In this document: positions 24,067-32,332 of the stretch, in pieces
Position numbering within the stretch: position 1 is the stretch's first letter
Layout of the letters: each line of letters opens with the position of its first letter
Assembly: GCA_029863705.1 (NCBI GenBank)
Contig: JAOTUU010000010.1
Span: 1 to 36,565, forward strand
DNA: 36,565 bases
Reading direction: 5' to 3'
From: Gammaproteobacteria bacterium
GTDB taxonomy: Bacteria; Pseudomonadota; Gammaproteobacteria; Steroidobacterales; Woeseiaceae
Notes under the pieces: model-generated
What the model saw: only the letters and a program-made list of their open reading frames with translations
Databases searched by the model: none
What the model was told of the DNA's origin: nothing
Position numbers and translations under genes: made by a program

Positions 24067-25251
24067 TCACTTTGAATAGCGTTTGGCGACTTGCTTGTAT
24101 GCGGTGCGGAAAGGAATGCCTTCTTCGCGAACGAGCCGGTACGCCTCTTCAGTGGCGAAAATGCCGTCGTCCAACTTTATGTTCTCCGGGCGAAATTTCA
24201 TGCCATCGAGCAGGTAGGCCATGATGTCTACGCTATCCGCCGCCAGGTCAATGGCGCGAAATAATGGTGCCTTGAGACGCTGTAGATCACGCTGATAGCC
24301 GGATTGCAGTTTTGCGGTGATCATCATCGCCTCGTCCAGACAGGCGTGGGCCGTAGCCGACGACGCGCGCAGCAGCTCGAGGACATCGGGGTTGCGTTTT
24401 TGCGGCATGATTGACGAGCCCGTCGTCACCTCTGGCGCCAGCGAGATATAGGCAAACTCCTGCGTATAAAACAGCAACAGGTCAGTGGCCATGCGGCCGA
24501 GGTCCTGCATCAGCAGGGTGATCTCAAACAGCAGCGTGCTCTCAGCCTTGCCGCGTGACAATTGCACAGACGTGACCGGTGCTTGCGTGACGGCAAAACC
24601 GAGCTTGTCAGTAGTTACGTCCCGATCCAGGGGCAGGCCCGGCGTACCGTATCCTGCTGCGCTACCGAGCGGGTTCTTGTTAATGCGTCGCTGGGCTGAT
24701 TGCAGCCCGTCGACAGCGTCGCCGAACGCTTCGTCAAAGCCGCCACACCACAGCGCGACAGTCGAGGGCATTGCATGTTGCATATGCGTGTAACCGGGAA
24801 TTTGCAATTCACCCTGTCGCTGGCCCAGTTGACCAGTCGACTCGCGCAAGCTAATCACGCGTCCTGCAAGGTCGTCTGCCGCATCGCGAAGATACAGGCG
24901 CAATGCTGTTAGCACCTGGTCGTTTCGCGAGCGGCCGAGATGCAGTCTCGCGCCGGCGTCACCGATCTCCTTGGTTAGCCGTGATTCGAGGGCGGTGTGC
25001 ACATCCTCGTCCTCGAGGCTTATGCTCCATTCCCCCTGAGAAAAACCAACCTCAAGCGCTTTGAGACCGTCGCAGATTGCGGCGCAATCGTCTGCGCTGA
25101 TGAGGTCAACCGTCGCCAGCATTTCGGCGTGCGCGATCGAGCCCCTGACATCGTAAGACACCAGCCGCGCATCCAGAAGATGGTCTTCGCCAGCCGTATA
25201 GCGCAATACGCGCTCGTCCAGTGGCAGGCCTTTTTCCCACAGCCGGCTCAT
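24067..25251 (-). CDS. argH: Argininosuccinate lyase, Bacteroides-like type with short C-terminus
   Basis: It performs the last arginine step, argininosuccinate to arginine plus fumarate (394 aa). Family motifs are present: EDEDVHTALESRLT, LHLGRSRNDQV, PGYTHMQHAMPST and TTGSSIMPQKRNPDVLELLR. The stretch NKNPLGSAAGYGTPGLPLDR has the Bacteroides-type GSAAGYG where E. coli has GCGALAGT. The protein ends soon after EEGIPFRTAYKQVAKRY, about 50-60 residues short of E. coli and Bacteroides ArgH as I recall them. No frameshift is evident, because the next in-frame codons lead straight into the intergenic region. The ATG overlaps the argB stop as ATGA. Confidence 0.93.
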   Translation of the reverse strand: MSRLWEKGLPLDERVLRYTAGEDHLLDARLVSYDVRGSIAHAEMLATVDLISADDCAAICDGLKALEVGFSQGEWSISLEDEDVHTALESRLTKEIGDAGARLHLGRSRNDQVLTALRLYLRDAADDLAGRVISLRESTGQLGQRQGELQIPGYTHMQHAMPSTVALWCGGFDEAFGDAVDGLQSAQRRINKNPLGSAAGYGTPGLPLDRDVTTDKLGFAVTQAPVTSVQLSRGKAESTLLFEITLLMQDLGRMATDLLLFYTQEFAYISLAPEVTTGSSIMPQKRNPDVLELLRASSATAHACLDEAMMITAKLQSGYQRDLQRLKAPLFRAIDLAADSVDIMAYLLDGMKFRPENIKLDDGIFATEEAYRLVREEGIPFRTAYKQVAKRYSK

Positions 25252-26180
25252 GCGGTATTACCGCCTTGCTCGGCTGGCGTAAGCGCAGCGATGTCATTCA
25301 CGACCAATGTCCCGGTGCCTTCATTGGTGAAGACTTCGAGCAGGATGCTGTCCGCTACTTTGAAGGAAATGACGTGCACGCGCTTCACGCCGTTCGCAAG
25401 CGCCGCGTCGATGGCCGCGGCCTTGGGCAACATGCCGTCGGCCAGTTTTCCCTCGGCCTTGAGTTTGTCGAGGGCGGCTCGGTCGACGTAGCTGATCAGC
25501 GATTGAGGGTCGTCGACGTCCTCGAGGATGCCGGGAGCCCCGGTCGCGAGTATGAGCTTTTCGGCGTTGAGCTCGGCCGCGATCGCGGCCGCGACGGTGT
25601 CGGCGTTGATATTCAGCACGGTTCCCGATTCGTCGCAGGACAAAGGGCTAACAACTGGCATCAGGCCGTTATCGAGCTGCTTGACCAGGATGTCAGCATC
25701 GACCGAATCGATGTCGCCGACGAATCCATAGTCCACTGAAGACTCCCCTTTTCGCTCGACCGGTGGCCGGCGGTGTGCCCGGATGAGTCCTGCATCAACA
25801 CCGCTGATACCTACGGCCGGAATTTGCAGATCCCTGCAAGCCGCGAGCACGCGTGTGTTGATCTGACCATTAAGGACCATCGTTGCAACATCGAGTGATG
25901 GGCCATCAGTAACACGGCGGCCGTCGACGAATGTCGTATCGAGTCCGAGTGCGGTCGCAAGTGCGGTTGATTGAGGGCCGCCCCCGTGAATCATGACGAC
26001 CCGGATGCCCACCTGGTGCAAAATGCCAACCTGCTCCATAAACGCCTGGGTTTGGGCGGCGTCTGCGAAGATCTCGCCGCCGGCCTTCAGGACGAACACT
26101 TTGCCTTTAAAAAGACGAATGTACGGTGCCGCGTGTTTGAGCGCTGACACGACGATGGCGCGGTCTTTACGGGCCGTCAT
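25248..26180 (-). CDS. argB: N-acylglutamate kinase (acetyl- or succinylglutamate kinase)
   Basis: An amino-acid kinase family protein (310 aa) that phosphorylates N-acylglutamate. Key pieces are KGKVFVLKAGGEIF (nucleotide-binding Lys), VVMIHGGGPQS (glycine loop), VDGRRVTDGPSLDVATMVLNGQINT (substrate contacts), DYGFVGDIDSVDADIL, LNINADTVAAAIAAEL, and a C-terminal GMLPKAAAIDAAL...GTLVV. There is no fused GNAT acetyltransferase domain, unlike the bifunctional Xanthomonas protein, so acyl transfer to glutamate must be done by another protein. The start ATG at 26180 overlaps the carbamoyltransferase stop, and its own stop overlaps argH. Whether the acyl group is acetyl or succinyl cannot be told from this sequence alone. 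Confidence 0.93.
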   Translation of the reverse strand: MTARKDRAIVVSALKHAAPYIRLFKGKVFVLKAGGEIFADAAQTQAFMEQVGILHQVGIRVVMIHGGGPQSTALATALGLDTTFVDGRRVTDGPSLDVATMVLNGQINTRVLAACRDLQIPAVGISGVDAGLIRAHRRPPVERKGESSVDYGFVGDIDSVDADILVKQLDNGLMPVVSPLSCDESGTVLNINADTVAAAIAAELNAEKLILATGAPGILEDVDDPQSLISYVDRAALDKLKAEGKLADGMLPKAAAIDAALANGVKRVHVISFKVADSILLEVFTNEGTGTLVVNDIAALTPAEQGGNTA

Positions 26181-27184
26181 GACTGAGCACCTAACATCTG
26201 ATGCAGCACGGCCATTTGCGCGAGCATCCGATTGCGCGCTTCGTGGATAACGACGCTGCGTGGTCCGTCGAGCACAGATTCGCTAACGACAACGCCGCGG
26301 CGCACCGGCAGACAGTGCATAAAGCGGCAATCGTCCCGGGCATTGTCGAACCAGGGCTCGTCGACGCACCAGTCGATAAGCTCGTTGCGTAGTTTTTCGT
26401 CACCGAGCCTGTCGCCGTAATGCCGGGTGGATGACCAGGACTTCGCGTAAATGACCTGCGCACCCTGCATTGCTTCACGCCTGTCATCTGTCTCATGAAT
26501 AGAGCCGCCGTTGGCCTCCGCCGCGTCCCTGGCTTGTCGCATCACGGGGTCGGGTAATTCGAAACCCTCCGGACGAAGCACCGTGACGTCCATGCCACGT
26601 TGTGCGGCCATGCGCAGCGTTGAAGAGGGCACTGCCAGCGGCAGCGCCCGCGGATGATAAGCCCAGCTCAGAACGAATTTACCGCCGTTGGCCGGGACGC
26701 CGAGGTCATCGAGCGTTTTCCAGTCTGCGAGGTTCTGGCAAGGGTGGCCCATCGCGGACTCCATGTTGATGTAAGGCGTATCGATCAGATCCGTGAGGGC
26801 ACTGAACTCCGTCTCGGCTATGTCCGCTTCCAGACTCTTGCGCTGCGCGAACGCACGAATGCCAATCGCGTCGCCGTAGGAAGCAATAACCGGTACGGCC
26901 TCGCGAATATGTTCTGCTGCTGCGCCGTCCATGACGATGCCAGGGCGCGTCTCTATACCGTGAATCGACATTTCCGGCGAAATGACAAATGAACCACCGC
27001 CGAGCCGAACCATCGCCGCCTGAAACGAGGCCAGCGTGCGTAACGATGGGCTCAGAAATAATAGCGACAGAACCTTGCCCTGCAGCGCGTGTGGTTCCGG
27101 ATGCGCATCAAGGCGATTGGCCAGTTCCAGCAAGCCCTGAATTTGATCATTCGTGAAGTCGGCAAGGTCGTTGAAGTTTTTCAT
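26177..27184 (-). CDS. argF': N-acylornithine carbamoyltransferase, predicted N-succinylornithine type
   Basis: A 335-residue transcarbamylase. The carbamoyl-phosphate loop is FLSPSLRTLASF, with Leu in place of the second Arg of SxRTR. HPCQNLAD and the C-terminal MHCLPVRRGVVVSESV follow the acylornithine subgroup and not ornithine carbamoyltransferase, which has the HCLP and SMG-loop form. In the specificity segment MDGAAAEHI, Ala90 aligns with Glu92 of Xanthomonas AOTCase and Pro90 of Bacteroides SOTCase. Glu92 changed to Ala, Pro, Ser or Val is reported to convert AOTCase to SOTCase, so succinylornithine is the predicted substrate. HPRALPLAVPSS and PEGFELPD also read closer to the Bacteroides enzyme. 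I chose the ATG at 27184 (AGAGAG upstream, protein begins at the family N-terminus) over an upstream start that adds 46 residues. Confidence 0.92.
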   Translation of the reverse strand: MKNFNDLADFTNDQIQGLLELANRLDAHPEPHALQGKVLSLLFLSPSLRTLASFQAAMVRLGGGSFVISPEMSIHGIETRPGIVMDGAAAEHIREAVPVIASYGDAIGIRAFAQRKSLEADIAETEFSALTDLIDTPYINMESAMGHPCQNLADWKTLDDLGVPANGGKFVLSWAYHPRALPLAVPSSTLRMAAQRGMDVTVLRPEGFELPDPVMRQARDAAEANGGSIHETDDRREAMQGAQVIYAKSWSSTRHYGDRLGDEKLRNELIDWCVDEPWFDNARDDCRFMHCLPVRRGVVVSESVLDGPRSVVIHEARNRMLAQMAVLHQMLGAQS

Positions 27185-27215
27185 TTTTGTCTCTCTGGGG
27201 TTGTGCGATCGGCCA

Positions 27216-28406
27216 TTATGCGATCGGCGGAGCGATCGAATCCAGCGCATCTGCAAGGTGATCGACATGATGCGATTCAAGGACGAGCGGGGCGAGAATA
27301 CGCAATACGTTCGGGTCGCCACTCGTGCCGGTCAATATATCGTGCTCAAGTAACGCATCGCGCACCTGGACAGCCGGGCGGTCACAAACGAGCCCGAGCA
27401 GCAGGCCTTTGCCCTGGATTCTCTGCACGGGGCCCTTGACGCACTGTTCGCGAATCTGTGTTTCCCGCTGCCGGACGTTATGCAACAAACCCTCAGCTTC
27501 GATCGACTCAATGACTGCAATAATTGCTGCTGCGGCCAATGGTCCTCCGCCAAAAGTCGTTCCGAGATCGCCAGGACCGAAATGCGCGGCGACTTCGTCA
27601 GCGCACAAAACGGCGCCGCAGGGCACACCTCCGCCCAGCGCTTTTGCAGCGGTCATGATGTCCGGTGAAATGCCGTGCGACTGTACGGCGAAATACTGAC
27701 CCGATCGCCCGATGCCCGACTGCACTTCGTCAGCGATAAAAAGCGCACCGACCTGGCGCGTCAATTTACGCAACGTGGTCAGGAACTCGTGTGACAGGTC
27801 GTAAGCACCCGCGACACCCTGCACCGGCTCGACAATGACGGCGGCAACATCCTGGCCGATCATCGCTGCGGCAGCGTCACAATCATCGCGTGGTATGAAC
27901 TCAACGTCGAACGGAGTCGATGGAAAACCGTACCACTTTTGTGATTTCCAGGTTACTGCTCCCGCAGCGGCGGTGCGGCCATGAAAGCCTCGCGTAATGG
28001 CGAGTATCTTTTTGCGATTCGTCACGACACACGCCATGCGCAATGCATTTTCGTTTGCCTCCGCGCCGGAATTTACGAAAAACACGCGCTTGAGTTCGTC
28101 CGGCGCAATGCCGAGCAGTTTCTCGGCCGCTTGAGCGCGAACCTCGAGGGCAACAGCATTACTTTGAAACAGCAGCTTCGCACTTTGTTCGCTAATGGCA
28201 GCCGTAAGGCGCGGGTGCCCATATCCCAGCGCAGCCACAGCGTGTCCTCCATACAGATCGAGGATTCGGCGGCCATCGTTTGTAATGATGTTGCAACCGC
28301 TCGCTCGCTCGGGAACGAACGGCAGCTGGCCGTATACGGACAGCGTAGTCGCCGCTTCGCGTACGCGCGGATCGATGGCCGCAATTGCGCCTGTTGTACT
28401 AAGCAT
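27216..28406 (-). CDS. argD: Acetylornithine/succinylornithine aminotransferase
   Basis: A class-III PLP aminotransferase (396 aa) making N-acylornithine from the semialdehyde. The PLP site is complete: VNSGAEANENALRMA, GFHGRTAAAGAVT, LFIADEVQSGIGRSG and the Schiff-base lysine in TAAKALGGGVP (Lys255). Members of this family commonly accept both acetyl- and succinyl-ornithine, so the sequence does not fix the acyl group. It starts three bases after argC and is followed 31 bases later by the carbamoyltransferase gene. Confidence 0.92.
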   Translation of the reverse strand: MLSTTGAIAAIDPRVREAATTLSVYGQLPFVPERASGCNIITNDGRRILDLYGGHAVAALGYGHPRLTAAISEQSAKLLFQSNAVALEVRAQAAEKLLGIAPDELKRVFFVNSGAEANENALRMACVVTNRKKILAITRGFHGRTAAAGAVTWKSQKWYGFPSTPFDVEFIPRDDCDAAAAMIGQDVAAVIVEPVQGVAGAYDLSHEFLTTLRKLTRQVGALFIADEVQSGIGRSGQYFAVQSHGISPDIMTAAKALGGGVPCGAVLCADEVAAHFGPGDLGTTFGGGPLAAAAIIAVIESIEAEGLLHNVRQRETQIREQCVKGPVQRIQGKGLLLGLVCDRPAVQVRDALLEHDILTGTSGDPNVLRILAPLVLESHHVDHLADALDSIAPPIA

Positions 28407-28409
28407 CTC

Positions 28410-29471
28410 TCAGGTCCATCCTGGCGCGGTGGCGGTGAGCCCCGTCGTCTCCGGCAGATCCCACAGGCGGTTCATCCACTGCACTGCACCGCCGGCGGCA
28501 CCTTTTACAAGGTTGTCGATAACACTCATCACAACAACGGTATCCTCCGCCGCGGCGACGCCGATCTGGCAATAGTTACTGGCAACAACATTCTTGAGTC
28601 TCGGCGTGCCGCTCACGACGTCGATAAATGCGGACTCGGCGTACGCTTTCTCGTAAACGTTGCGAATCACCTGGTCAGAGACGCGTTGCATTGCTTTTGC
28701 CTGGACTGTCGCGTGGATGCCGCGCGAAAATGGGCCGGAATGCGGTACGAAATTGACTTTAGTTTCGCGGCCGCTTGCAGCTTCTGTCAGCCTCGCAATC
28801 TCTGGCGCGTGTCGATGCGCCAGCGGCTTGTAGGCATACATGTTGCTGTGACGTTCCGGGTGGTGCGTGCCGGGCTGCGGGTTTCTTCCTGAGCCCGTGC
28901 TGCCCGTGACGCCAGTGACGAATATTTCACTATTTGTCAGGCCCGACTGAATGAGCGGCACAGAAGCCAGCAGAATTGCCGTGGCGAAACAGCCGGGGTG
29001 ACCAACGTGCTGTGCCGTGATCTCGCTGACGTGCTCGGGAACGCCTGATTGGAATTGTGGCAGCAATTCAGGCGCACCGTGCTCGGTACCATAGACTGCT
29101 TCATAGTCCAGCTGGCTGGCGTATCGAAAATCGGCCGAGGAATCGACAACGTGTACGGTCAGTTTCTTATGTTCCGCTGTCGCCAGCGCTTTTGCGATCA
29201 ACGCGGCCGAAGCACCGTGCGGTGCAGCCGAGAACAAAGCCAGTTGGCCGCCATCGTCTATAAAATCTGCCCAGTCTTCGTGCGATACGTATCGTTGGCC
29301 TGCAACAGCGTGAGCGAGGTTCGCGAACGTTTCGCCAATCAGCTCACCGCTACGACTTTCCGACACCACTGCGGCGAGTTCAAAACGGGGATGCGCTGAA
29401 ATCAGGCGCAGCAACTCGCCACCGACATAGCCGGTGCCACCCAGGATGACGGCCTGTATTTTTTTGCTCAT
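28410..29471 (-). CDS. argC: N-acyl-gamma-glutamyl-phosphate reductase
   Basis: A 353-residue NADPH-dependent reductase. It has the N-terminal nucleotide-binding GGTGYVGGELLRL, the catalytic cysteine in VGHPGCFATA (Cys161), VTGVTGSTGSGRNP and the His-containing NFVPHSGPFSRGIHATV. The enzyme makes N-acylglutamate semialdehyde from the ArgB product. Its start overlaps the stop of the P-loop protein gene as ATGA, and argD begins three bases after its end. Confidence 0.94.
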   Translation of the reverse strand: MSKKIQAVILGGTGYVGGELLRLISAHPRFELAAVVSESRSGELIGETFANLAHAVAGQRYVSHEDWADFIDDGGQLALFSAAPHGASAALIAKALATAEHKKLTVHVVDSSADFRYASQLDYEAVYGTEHGAPELLPQFQSGVPEHVSEITAQHVGHPGCFATAILLASVPLIQSGLTNSEIFVTGVTGSTGSGRNPQPGTHHPERHSNMYAYKPLAHRHAPEIARLTEAASGRETKVNFVPHSGPFSRGIHATVQAKAMQRVSDQVIRNVYEKAYAESAFIDVVSGTPRLKNVVASNYCQIGVAAAEDTVVVMSVIDNLVKGAAGGAVQWMNRLWDLPETTGLTATAPGWT

Positions 29472-30526
29472 GCTACGTCCTTGTGCCGCAGCAAGTCTGC
29501 GACCAGGTCACCGAGAGCCACGCCATTCGACAAGGCGTTGATTGCCGGCAACGATATTCGCTCGGATATTTGATCAACACCGACGGCATTGTCAGTCGCC
29601 GGCCCGGTTACGACAGCAGGTTCAATGTTGAAACTCTCGCGAAGAATTTTCGCGCCGCCCCAGGCAGAAACCGGATCGTTTGCGCACAGGATAACGGCGG
29701 TCAACGCATTGCGAATCGCCTCGTCGGACAATATCGCTTCGACACCGTAGGCACCGAGAAGGCCGTCGCCGAGCTCAAGCACGATGACATCGGGATTTTT
29801 CTCTGCAAGGCTCGTCAGTAATGCGCGCGTCAGTGCGGGCCCATTCCTCGCAGTTGTCGTAACGACTCCGAGGTCGGAGAAGATCATCGTTTCCGACGCG
29901 CCGGCGTCTTCCATTGTCAGGATGTCACGCCGCAGTGAAACGCCAGTCGCTTTGCACGCGGCTACGTGCAGGCCGAGATGTCTCAGGCGGCTGACGATCG
30001 CGCAGGCGGCGGCTGTCTTACCCGAATCCATGCAGGTACCGGCAAGTGCGACAACTGGCACGCCTTTCGAGTCTAGTAGTGCGTTTACATCAAGCGTTTT
30101 CATCCCTGCACGTGCCGGTATGCCGATTCTTTCGCCGAGGTACGGAAAATGCAGTACGGTTCCGAGAACCTTGCAATCGAACGGTGGTCCCACGTCGGGA
30201 TTTGCCGAGTCACAATGGCCAAGAACGCCGCCGATGTTGAGCAGCTGGATGGTATCGCCTGGCGTGAGTTCGGTCGGCAAACGACCGGAGTAGCCGCGCA
30301 ATGCGTTGCGGTGACCGAGCGCCCCGACGACAATGTCGCCCTGGGTTACCGTTGCCATGCGACCTGACGTCAGCTCCAACTGGTTATAGCGCGCCTTGTT
30401 ATTGAGTACGCGGACAGCTACGAGCACACCTTCTTCGCACGGAATGTCCGCAGACAGTCGCAACTCGTGCCCGAGTTCTGAGTGCTGGGCAACAGAGGCA
30501 ATCTTGTCTACGACAATACTTTTCAT
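29468..30526 (-). CDS. Uncharacterised P-loop protein (BioD/DUF1611-like) embedded in the arginine operon
   Basis: A 352-residue protein whose exact family I cannot name. Residues 1-135 look like a beta-rich domain (ELTSGRMATVTQGDIVVGALGHRNALRGYSGRLP, LTPGDTIQLLNIGGVLG). From about 157 comes a P-loop domain with GTCMDSGKT (163-171). Its G-x5-GK spacing matches dethiobiotin synthetase (GTDTEVGKT) and DUF1611/DgcN proteins (GTDCSVGKM). CKATGV (191-196), VIVLELGDGLLG (248-258) and VILCANDP (278-285) fall where DUF1611 proteins have similar segments. DgcN is reported to N-acetylate D-glutamate. ATG overlaps join it to argG and argC, with GGAGG seven bases upstream, so it is a core operon member. 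The window has no GNAT synthase, ArgJ or ArgE, so it could supply N-acylglutamate. Deacylation or regulation are alternatives. Function is inferred. Confidence 0.8.
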   Translation of the reverse strand: MKSIVVDKIASVAQHSELGHELRLSADIPCEEGVLVAVRVLNNKARYNQLELTSGRMATVTQGDIVVGALGHRNALRGYSGRLPTELTPGDTIQLLNIGGVLGHCDSANPDVGPPFDCKVLGTVLHFPYLGERIGIPARAGMKTLDVNALLDSKGVPVVALAGTCMDSGKTAAACAIVSRLRHLGLHVAACKATGVSLRRDILTMEDAGASETMIFSDLGVVTTTARNGPALTRALLTSLAEKNPDVIVLELGDGLLGAYGVEAILSDEAIRNALTAVILCANDPVSAWGGAKILRESFNIEPAVVTGPATDNAVGVDQISERISLPAINALSNGVALGDLVADLLRHKDVA

Positions 30527-31737
30527 TGCCGGCCTCCGGCCGCGCGTGTTTGCAGCGAGCCAGGCAACGAGAGGATGCGGGCATAGCCGAGCGCATCGGC
30601 GGCTGTCCATTCGCCGGCAGTCTCGCCGTACACGCCCTTGGTAGCGGCGAGCAGAGAATGAGGTGATTCAACACCCTCGACAAAAAGGTTGCCAGGTTTC
30701 AAGGAAAACCGGACGGTTCCGGTAACGCGTCTTTGCGACGAGCTCAGCATGGCTTCTATGTCATCGCACACAAGATCCAGCTGCTTGCCTTCGTGCACGA
30801 GGTCGCCGTAGATGGCTGCGATCGTATCCTTGACGCGCATTTGCTGCGCGCTTAACACGAGCTTCTCAAGTTCGCGATGGGCAGTAAGCAGAGTTATTGC
30901 TGCCGGTGCCTCAAAAGCCACGCGACCTTTTGTGCCCAATACGGTATCGCCAAGGTGAATGCCCCGGCCAATGCCATAACTGCCAGACAGCTCCTCGAGT
31001 TTCTCAATGAGTTCGACAGGCGAATACGAGGTACCGTCGAGCGCGACTGGCACACCGGCCTCAAAGTCCAGGGTGTGTTGTGACGGCGGCTGCGGATTGC
31101 TGAACGCGTTCGCCGATAGCACCCAGGCGTCTTCGGGAATTGCGTTTTTGGATGTCAGCGTTTCCTGGCCACCGATCGTTATGCCCCACAGGCCGCGATT
31201 AATTGAATACGCAGAACCTTGCGTCGGCAACGGCATATCCTGATCTTCAAGGTACGTGAGTTGTTCTTCGCGAACCCAGTTGTTGTCGCGCACCGGTGCG
31301 AGGATTTCCAGGCCAGGATTGAGTGTGCGAAGCGCAACTTCGAATCGAACCTGATCGTTTCCGGCTGCGGTGCAGCCGTGGGCCACGGTCGTTGCACCTC
31401 TGTCTTTCGCAAGTTGCGCGAGCCGGGCAGCCTGCAAGCCGCGCTCTGCTCCAACGCACAGCGGATAGGTTTGCCCGCGAAGCACGTTGCCGGCGATCAG
31501 GTAGCGAATGACCGAGTCGAAAAAGTCCTGCTTGCTGTCAACGACAACATGTTCAGTCGCACCGAGCGCCATCGCCCGCTCCCTGAGCGATACGGCCGCG
31601 CCAGCGTCGATACCACCGGTGTCGACTGTGGCGGTGATTACCTCTCGGCCGTAGGTTTCTTTGAGCCACGGCACACAAAACGAGGTGTCGAGGCCGCCTG
31701 AGAACGCGAGAATAATGGGTGATTGATCTGTGCTCAC
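30523..31737 (-). CDS. argG: Argininosuccinate synthase
   Basis: A 404-residue enzyme that joins citrulline and aspartate with ATP. The ATP pyrophosphatase motif AFSGGLDTSF is at about 11-20, with TVDTGG, YPLCVGAERGLQAARLA, HGCTAAGNDQVRFE and NNWVREEQLTYLEDQ following. It reads as the branch of ArgG seen in acylornithine-carbamoyltransferase organisms. The start is GTG at 31737 with AGGG eight bases upstream. The next ATG would remove the ATP-binding motif. It lies 22 bases after argR and overlaps the next gene as ATGA. Confidence 0.95.
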   Translation of the reverse strand: MSTDQSPIILAFSGGLDTSFCVPWLKETYGREVITATVDTGGIDAGAAVSLRERAMALGATEHVVVDSKQDFFDSVIRYLIAGNVLRGQTYPLCVGAERGLQAARLAQLAKDRGATTVAHGCTAAGNDQVRFEVALRTLNPGLEILAPVRDNNWVREEQLTYLEDQDMPLPTQGSAYSINRGLWGITIGGQETLTSKNAIPEDAWVLSANAFSNPQPPSQHTLDFEAGVPVALDGTSYSPVELIEKLEELSGSYGIGRGIHLGDTVLGTKGRVAFEAPAAITLLTAHRELEKLVLSAQQMRVKDTIAAIYGDLVHEGKQLDLVCDDIEAMLSSSQRRVTGTVRFSLKPGNLFVEGVESPHSLLAATKGVYGETAGEWTAADALGYARILSLPGSLQTRAAGGRQ

Positions 31738-31759: not shown

Positions 31760-32209
31760 TTACGCGCAGGCGCGTTCGATTTTCGCGATCAAAATTTTCT
31801 GGCTACTGCCGGAATCTGATGCGACAAACACGGTGTCATCGCCACCGATGTTGCCAATCATCTCGGGCCAGTCGCTACGATCCAGCGCCAGTGCCACGCG
31901 TTGAGCCGCACCGATGGCGGTTTTGATGACGGTTAGATTGGGGCCGGCCGGCGTAACGCCGCGGATAAACTCAGCAACACCTGTTAGATCGTCGTCACTT
32001 GAATTCGCGTTCGGCAGCTCGTAGCCGCGGCCGGTCTTGATTGCGCCGATGTCCTTGAGGTCCCGACTAACACTGGATTGCGTCGCAACGAGCCCGCGCG
32101 CAATCAGCTCCTGGACAAGCGATTGCTGGGTATCGGCTGGCGCGCGCGACAGCAGCTGCCGGATTGCGTCGCGGCGTAGCGTTTGTTCCCGAGTTGAGTT
32201 CGGCATCAT
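31760..32209 (-). CDS. argR: Arginine repressor ArgR
   Basis: A 149-residue ArgR. The N-terminal winged helix-turn-helix is RRDAIRQLLSRAPADTQQSLVQELIARGLVATQSSVSRDLKDIGAIK. The C-terminal hexamerisation/arginine-binding domain (about 75-149) carries TAIGAAQRVALALDRSDWPEMIGNIGGDDTVFVA, with the GDDT aspartates that bind arginine. I chose the ATG at 32209 (or 32206). The longer open frame would add 22 hydrophobic residues encoded by operator/promoter sequence. It heads the arginine operon, so the operon encodes its own repressor, as in Bacteroides. Confidence 0.93.
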   Translation of the reverse strand: MMPNSTREQTLRRDAIRQLLSRAPADTQQSLVQELIARGLVATQSSVSRDLKDIGAIKTGRGYELPNANSSDDDLTGVAEFIRGVTPAGPNLTVIKTAIGAAQRVALALDRSDWPEMIGNIGGDDTVFVASDSGSSQKILIAKIERACA

Positions 32210-32213
32210 ATTG

Positions 32214-32262
32214 CTCGCATAAATATGCGCATAGAATAACGACAATGCGCATAATAGGTCAA
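32214..32262 (-). promoter_or_regulatory. argR operon promoter with ARG-box-like palindromes
   Basis: On the minus strand TTGACC (32257-32262) and TATTCT (32233-32238) are 18 bases apart. An ARG-box-like 18-mer lies at 32214-32231, with a perfect CGCATA-TT-TATGCG core at 32216-32229, immediately before the argR start. The palindromes TATGCGCATA (32224-32233) and ATGCGCAT (32245-32252) have centres 20 bases apart, close to the ~21-base spacing of paired ARG boxes, and overlap the -10 and the spacer. Autoregulation by ArgR and arginine is inferred. Confidence 0.6.
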
Positions 32263-32332
32263 GCCCCTGAATCATATTTTTTACAATTTTTCGGGTTACA
32301 CTGCGCGACTCTACGAATACAGGGAACTGTGG

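Follow-up and report, generated by a model that had tools for sequence, protein, structure and literature searches.

An arginine operon of the order Steroidobacterales holds, between argG and argC, the gene for a 352-residue P-loop protein (hereafter PLP) that is probably a non-GNAT N-succinyl(acyl)glutamate synthase replacing ArgA; there are no activity data. This assignment is based on the observed conservation of the operon, the observed absence of the synthases that were searched for, a residue signature in the carbamoyltransferase ArgF′, and the predicted fold of the C-terminal domain. PLP would open arginine synthesis by acylating L-glutamate at its alpha-amino group, with succinyl, donated by succinyl-CoA, the most likely acyl group. 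The unfused ArgB would phosphorylate the product, ArgC and ArgD would carry out the reduction and the transamination, and a succinylornithine-type ArgF′ would add the carbamoyl group; desuccinylation would fall to an enzyme encoded elsewhere, for which DapE is a candidate, and ArgG and ArgH would complete the pathway. The reaction and its donor are inferred, as are the binding of CoA or a nucleotide by the P-loop and the identity of the desuccinylase.

The arg operon and the PLP gene

The window, i.e., the whole stretch of 36,565 nucleotides analyzed, comes from a 3.68-Mb MAG that is 93.79% complete and whose source appears to be a gammaproteobacterium of the Woeseiaceae. On its minus strand, the gene order established with Pfam and NCBIfam was argR, argG, PLP, argC, argD, argF′, argB, and argH. 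The arginine repressor gene argR (31760..32275, start codon uncertain) matched PF02863 and PF01316 over their cut-offs, argG (argininosuccinate synthase, 30523..31737) matched TIGR00032 with 316.8 bits (cut-off 268.2), and argC (N-acyl-gamma-glutamyl-phosphate reductase, 28410..29471) matched TIGR01850 with 311.4 (cut-off 233.6). The argD-type aminotransferase (27216..28406) matched PF00202 with 319.6 bits, and its best NCBIfam models were acetylornithine transaminases, all under their cut-offs. They are followed by argF′ (26177..27190), a predicted N-succinylornithine carbamoyltransferase gene (NF003384, 323.4 against a cut-off of 288), argB (25248..26180), a kinase gene without an acetyltransferase domain (TIGR00761, 206.4 against 151.3; PF00696 as the only Pfam domain), and argH (argininosuccinate lyase, 24067..25251; TIGR00838, 309.4 against 279.5). 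The earlier note on this DNA had named the same seven arg genes and an ArgB lacking a GNAT fusion, and both model libraries bear this out.

The PLP gene (29468..30526 including the stop codon, minus strand) is an open reading frame of 352 amino acids, and the plus strand of the same interval contains internal stops. Sequence inspection also upheld the description of a protein with a G-x5-GK loop that overlaps both neighbors by ATGA (its start with the argG stop, its stop with the argC start); the earlier note had left the minus strand unstated. The Walker-type loop, GTCMDSGKT (residues 163–171; 30014..30040, minus strand), reads G163-TCMDS-GKT, i.e., G-x5-GKT. Pfam and NCBIfam returned only sub-threshold MobB matches for PLP: neither GNAT nor NAT was among its domains, TIGR01890 did not exceed its cut-off, and the Pfam scan gave no match to the ArgJ domain PF01960. 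A chance open reading frame was ruled out by the conservation of the gene.

Predicted fold of PLP

An AlphaFold2 model of PLP built on 41 sequences (pLDDT 75, pTM 0.69) was reliable over most of its C-terminal half. The C-terminal P-loop domain (approximately residues 151–352; 29471..30076, minus strand), delimited by this model and by structural matches from VIA, had pLDDT values of 66–96 in 10-residue blocks except for the last residues. The N-terminal beta-rich domain (approximately residues 1–150; 30077..30526, minus strand) was modeled with low-to-middling confidence (pLDDT 46.6 when modeled alone), and its fold is not established.

VIA matched the model to 2g0t (Z 16.8, 180 residues aligned, 2.7 Å), which we take to be a DUF1611 protein and whose PDB title is nucleotide-binding protein TM0796, and to 2obn (Z 16.1, 187 aligned, 2.9 Å); both alignments start near PLP residue 51–54, where confidence in the N-terminal model is low. 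BioD (Z 15.2), CTP synthases (Z of approximately 14–16), and 7xrj (Z 14.6, 183 aligned, 3.1 Å), titled N-acetyltransferase DgcN in the PDB, were also matched; two DUF1611 structures stood among the best five matches and DgcN lower. Foldseek listed BioD, SRP GTPases, and HypB in its top rows and 2obn at 3.6e-5. Because many unrelated P-loop proteins lie within a few Z units of DUF1611, the fold speaks for a P-loop enzyme, with no more than a leaning toward DUF1611.

In sequence comparisons, PLP gave no match to Pfam DUF1611 (PF07755) at E <= 1 and nothing among solved structures at E <= 10, and a profile of the wider family gave only weak matches to solved structures, mostly the loops of BioD and MobB. 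However, 12 of the 18 members of the wider family alignment matched DUF1611 at E <= 0.1, and hhalign aligned the wider family, paralogues included, with DUF1611 over 182 columns of the P-loop domain (92%, E 6e-7). The arg clade alone aligned weakly (21.7%), and the M20-type paralogues reached 80.1%. By these profile comparisons, with DUF1611 also among the top fold matches, the P-loop domain of PLP counts as homologous to DUF1611, a link that needs the paralogues. The BioD/DUF1611-like fold proposed in the earlier note is therefore largely borne out: DUF1611, BioD, and DgcN are among the structural matches, but PLP itself lacks a Pfam DUF1611 match.

DgcN, whose substrate is reportedly D-glutamate, and the DUF1611 structures 2g0t and 2obn have a P-loop domain fold like that of PLP. 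PLP differs from these proteins in its arg operon context, in not keeping the DUF1611 motifs TGQTG and EGQGSL, and in its N-terminal part, which hhalign left unaligned with DUF1611. BioD has the same GTxxxxGKT loop spacing as PLP, whereas PLP has an extra N-terminal domain, approximately 14% identity to BioD, and a location in the arg operon.

This fold leaves room for an ATP-dependent ligase: PLP would still perform the first step, but by coupling glutamate to a free acid (succinate, for example) at the expense of ATP or GTP. BioD spends ATP in this way on closure of a ureido ring, CTP synthase is an ATP user too, and the Z scores of both lie close to those of DUF1611; moreover, the loop is intact as G-x5-GK[TS], more narrowly G[TS]xMxxGK[TS], in all 100 arg-type loci compared. 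The fold alone cannot choose between ATP and CoA, but DgcN, deposited as an N-acetyltransferase (by its PDB title only), suggests that such a fold can use an acyl donor. We consider a ligase unlikely, and neither it nor a deacylase role for PLP is excluded.

Distribution of PLP and of the known synthases

We surveyed 60 genomes, comprising 37 of the genus (the window's own included) and 23 others of the order. An arg-type copy of PLP, at 60–100% identity, was present in 46 of them (35 of the genus and 11 of the order outside it), with two copies split over contigs; only an edge fragment was found in one genome (G006) and only a distant copy in three (G023, G039, and G042). Across the class (369 genomes, own included), nine had an arg-type match of at least 330 bits and 18 only a distant match of at most 122 bits. 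The phylum survey (299 genomes) yielded arg-type matches in G000 and G674 and distant ones in two others. A plasmid search gave eight distant matches at 27–30% identity (two annotated DUF1611, one dethiobiotin synthase), and a scan of viral contigs found no relatives. The species-level collection contained 418 relatives; the best 80, which were taken further, bear titles that are largely those of MAGs of Woeseiaceae, other Gammaproteobacteria, or Proteobacteria.

The 100 loci compared represent 96 distinct proteins, and some share a genome. argC lay on the strand of PLP in every one, with a gap of −4 bases in 77 and a wide gap (588 bases) in one. The order argR-G-PLP-C-D-F′-B-H was kept in all 15 operons fetched (11 order-level and four genus-level) and in 59 of the 80 named loci; another 16 of these 80 lacked one or more genes, mostly on short pieces ending there, and in one locus (L174) argF′ directly followed argC, with argD absent. 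Three of the four class-level carriers had argD-F′-B-H-G-PLP-C, and the fourth (L092) was a short contig showing G-PLP-C.

In a midpoint-rooted tree of 46 PLP sequences, which holds a few genes twice, the 21 arg-type sequences formed a single clade with a support of 0.991, in which the four class-level copies were sister to the other arg-type sequences. The copy of G674, a genome of another class, was nested within the clade, so that transfer is likely. In G674, PLP stands in argR-PLP-argC-argB, and argG-argF-argH lie elsewhere, all three over cut-off. Its company of argR, argC, and argB alone points to the first step of the pathway. The argF of G674 is an ordinary ornithine carbamoyltransferase gene (346.9 bits against a cut-off of 280.85), which indicates that PLP is not tied to a succinyl route everywhere.

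Within the order, two arg operons alternate: type A, with PLP and an unfused ArgB, and type B, without PLP and with a fused ArgB and ArgE. Twelve of the 23 order-level genomes outside the genus had no arg-type PLP copy, and eight of these 12 (G039, G040, G042, G043, G049, G051, G053, and G056) had a complete ArgB of 437–457 aa; three (G044, G048, and G057) gave no ArgB match and one (G054) only fragments. Each of the eight carried the NAT domain of N-acetylglutamate synthase (PF04768) at 132.8–156.1 bits (cut-off 27), compared with neither of the two type-A ArgB scanned beside them. Together with matches to PRK04531 over cut-off, this identifies the type-B ArgB as the NAT-ArgB fusion that we presume is the one called "Xanthomonas-type". 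The eight proteins extended 133–142 residues past the end of the window's ArgB, whereas the extension was at most 2 residues in type-A ArgB (25 ORFs of the order and genus set and 71 of the named loci, two sets that overlap in genomes and include some incomplete ORFs) and did not exceed 14 in four distant carriers. The arg proteins of type B were only approximately 27–42% identical to those of the window. As the order-level genomes are related, 11 carriers versus eight fusions do not amount to 19 independent events.

In all eight type-B operons, argE (PRK08737, over cut-off) preceded the fused argB. ArgE was absent from the operon in the 11 order-level PLP carriers, and the 15 type-A operons fetched showed no deacylase gene in the stretch from argR to argH. 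The type-A operon thus lacks both a synthase and a deacylase, and since the type-B operon has both a synthase fusion and ArgE, the swap cannot tell which of the two steps PLP replaces.

The known synthases were sought in the 60 genomes and in 14 controls. ArgJ was present in 10 of the controls and ArgA exceeded its cut-off in one, whereas none of the 60 gave ArgJ or an over-cut-off ArgA; among the more distant carriers, each was found in none of five. Weak matches confined to the GNAT part of ArgA were sporadic: 12 of the 60 genomes had them (eight being PLP carriers), as did two of the five distant carriers. The PLP genomes surveyed thus lack ArgJ, over-cut-off ArgA, and the acetyltransferase–ArgB fusion, in keeping with the pattern that the earlier note had looked to, and the fusion is present in every readable non-carrier of the same order.

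A census of PF00583 GNATs in 15 carriers gave 1 to 17 matches each; free-standing NAT proteins (PF04768) and GNATs caught by other models would escape it. In the carrier G041 (1.6 Mb, 98% complete), the single match was RimI (107.9 bits against 86.4), and a PF00583 GNAT common to all carriers was accordingly rejected as the synthase. The window's own genome, a 94%-complete MAG, contains six such GNATs, so that a GNAT synthase cannot be strictly excluded there. With 2 to 17 PF00583 GNATs in 14 of the 15 carriers, the first step could instead be performed by a cryptic acetyltransferase and PLP be an accessory or regulatory protein (a scaffold or a sensor, for example); other P-loop proteins do serve as regulators or carriers. 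We regard such a role as improbable: the only PF00583 GNAT of G041 is RimI, PLP alternates with a synthase fusion, and in a genome of another class, whose copy falls inside the arg-type clade, it accompanies argC and argB.

The weakest reading is that PLP replaces ArgE and deacylates N-acylcitrulline, with an unidentified synthase elsewhere; the two gaps in the type-A operon and the argE of type B make either gap possible, but a P-loop protein would be an odd hydrolase, the G674 copy lies beside argR and the step-2 and step-3 genes, and G041 has DapE as a candidate for desuccinylation yet no PF00583 GNAT beyond RimI for step 1, which leaves this reading improbable.

Acyl group, precedents, and relatives

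The nature of the acyl group was predicted from ArgF′. According to the available part of a review (PMC4581275), carbamoyltransferases of the acetylornithine type have Glu92, Asn185, and Lys302, and those of the succinylornithine type A/S/P/V/Q, P, and V/I/E; GapMind uses the first site likewise, as far as the available part of PMC7311316 states. The window's ArgF′ has A/P/V at positions 92/185/302 (Xc numbering) and thus meets the succinylornithine criterion and not the acetyl criterion E/N/K. Among 96 distinct sequences compared, type-A ArgF′ comprised 77 APV, 6 APA (which fits the succinyl criterion at two of three sites), 2 PPE, 2 VPE, and 2 incomplete sequences, whereas the type-B carbamoyltransferases were 6 ENK and 1 ENQ. 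Given A/P/V in ArgF′, succinylated intermediates are predicted, and judging from these residues, the acetyl-type name given to the window's ArgF′ by NCBIfam (NF003384) is probably wrong. The three diagnostic residues strengthen the earlier suggestion of a succinyl group, and with the fold and the survey they support a non-GNAT acylglutamate synthase, the activity itself remaining an inference.

PLP differs from the GNAT N-acylglutamate synthases, among which we presume BT3761 to belong, in its P-loop fold and in having no GNAT or NAT domain. The step proposed for PLP and its place in the arg cluster are the same as those of ArgA, the NAT-ArgB fusion, S-NAGS, and BT3761, as far as the part of the GapMind paper available goes (PMC7311316). 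The same part proposes BT3761 for Bacteroidetes, citing its resemblance to a known synthase along with fitness data. In the accessible portion of a 2015 review (PMC4490483), the glutamate-succinylating gene was unidentified and a GNAT-like enzyme was expected; the acetylglutamate synthases listed were mostly GNAT-related or ArgJ, with C-NAGS reported to share no sequence relationship with the rest. The ornithine acetyltransferase ArgJ can make acetylglutamate according to that portion, and PLP has no ArgJ domain. No description of PLP or an equivalent was found among open-licence PMC papers, as represented by their titles and the beginnings of their abstracts. If PLP is the synthase, this step would have a P-loop solution distinct from GNAT, the predicted succinyl route would extend to Woeseiaceae-like marine-sediment bacteria, acetyl-type annotations of such ArgF′ would be corrected, and a function would be suggested for a larger unnamed family.

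As to desuccinylation, M20 was matched twice in G041: once by DapE, which is over cut-off and a plausible, inferred desuccinylase there, and once by a protein that, judged by eye, likely carries a signal peptide. More tentatively, PLP may found the arginine branch of a superfamily of P-loop N-acyltransferases acting on amino acids, with DgcN and the M20-linked paralogues as other members. It would then be a non-GNAT succinyl-CoA:L-glutamate N-succinyltransferase dedicated to a succinyl-arginine pathway of proteobacteria, in which DapE would double as N-succinylcitrulline desuccinylase; we put this forward as a conjecture that could well fail.

In G674, a PRK07338-family M20 gene (529 bits against 357), possibly for a desuccinylase, lies beside an AstA-type succinyltransferase gene (L259, 1957–4796). 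Paralogues of PLP (L080, L065–L068, and others) often follow two genes, of approximately 202 and 390 aa, judged by size; where scanned (L080 and L065), a flavin-reductase-like gene was present. The M20-linked paralogue of the window's own genome (contig C202) is a full-length homologue of PLP (hhalign E 9e-37) with the shared loop GTSMSAGKT; unlike PLP, it is not in an arg operon and follows the flavin-reductase-like gene and an M20 hydrolase gene, the latter nearest PRK07338 and glutamate carboxypeptidase models (L080, 625–3472). Acylation plus deacylation would fit this pairing, an untested inference. A third branch of the family consists of L076, L077, L078, and L081; L078 barely passes the cut-off of DUF1611 (25.1 against 25), and L081 precedes an ABC transporter and a porin O/P-like gene. 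The window's own genome also encodes a true DUF1611 protein (234.8 bits against 25; L270, contig C368, 1447–2589), which adjoins an alanine-racemase-like protein, as judged by eye.
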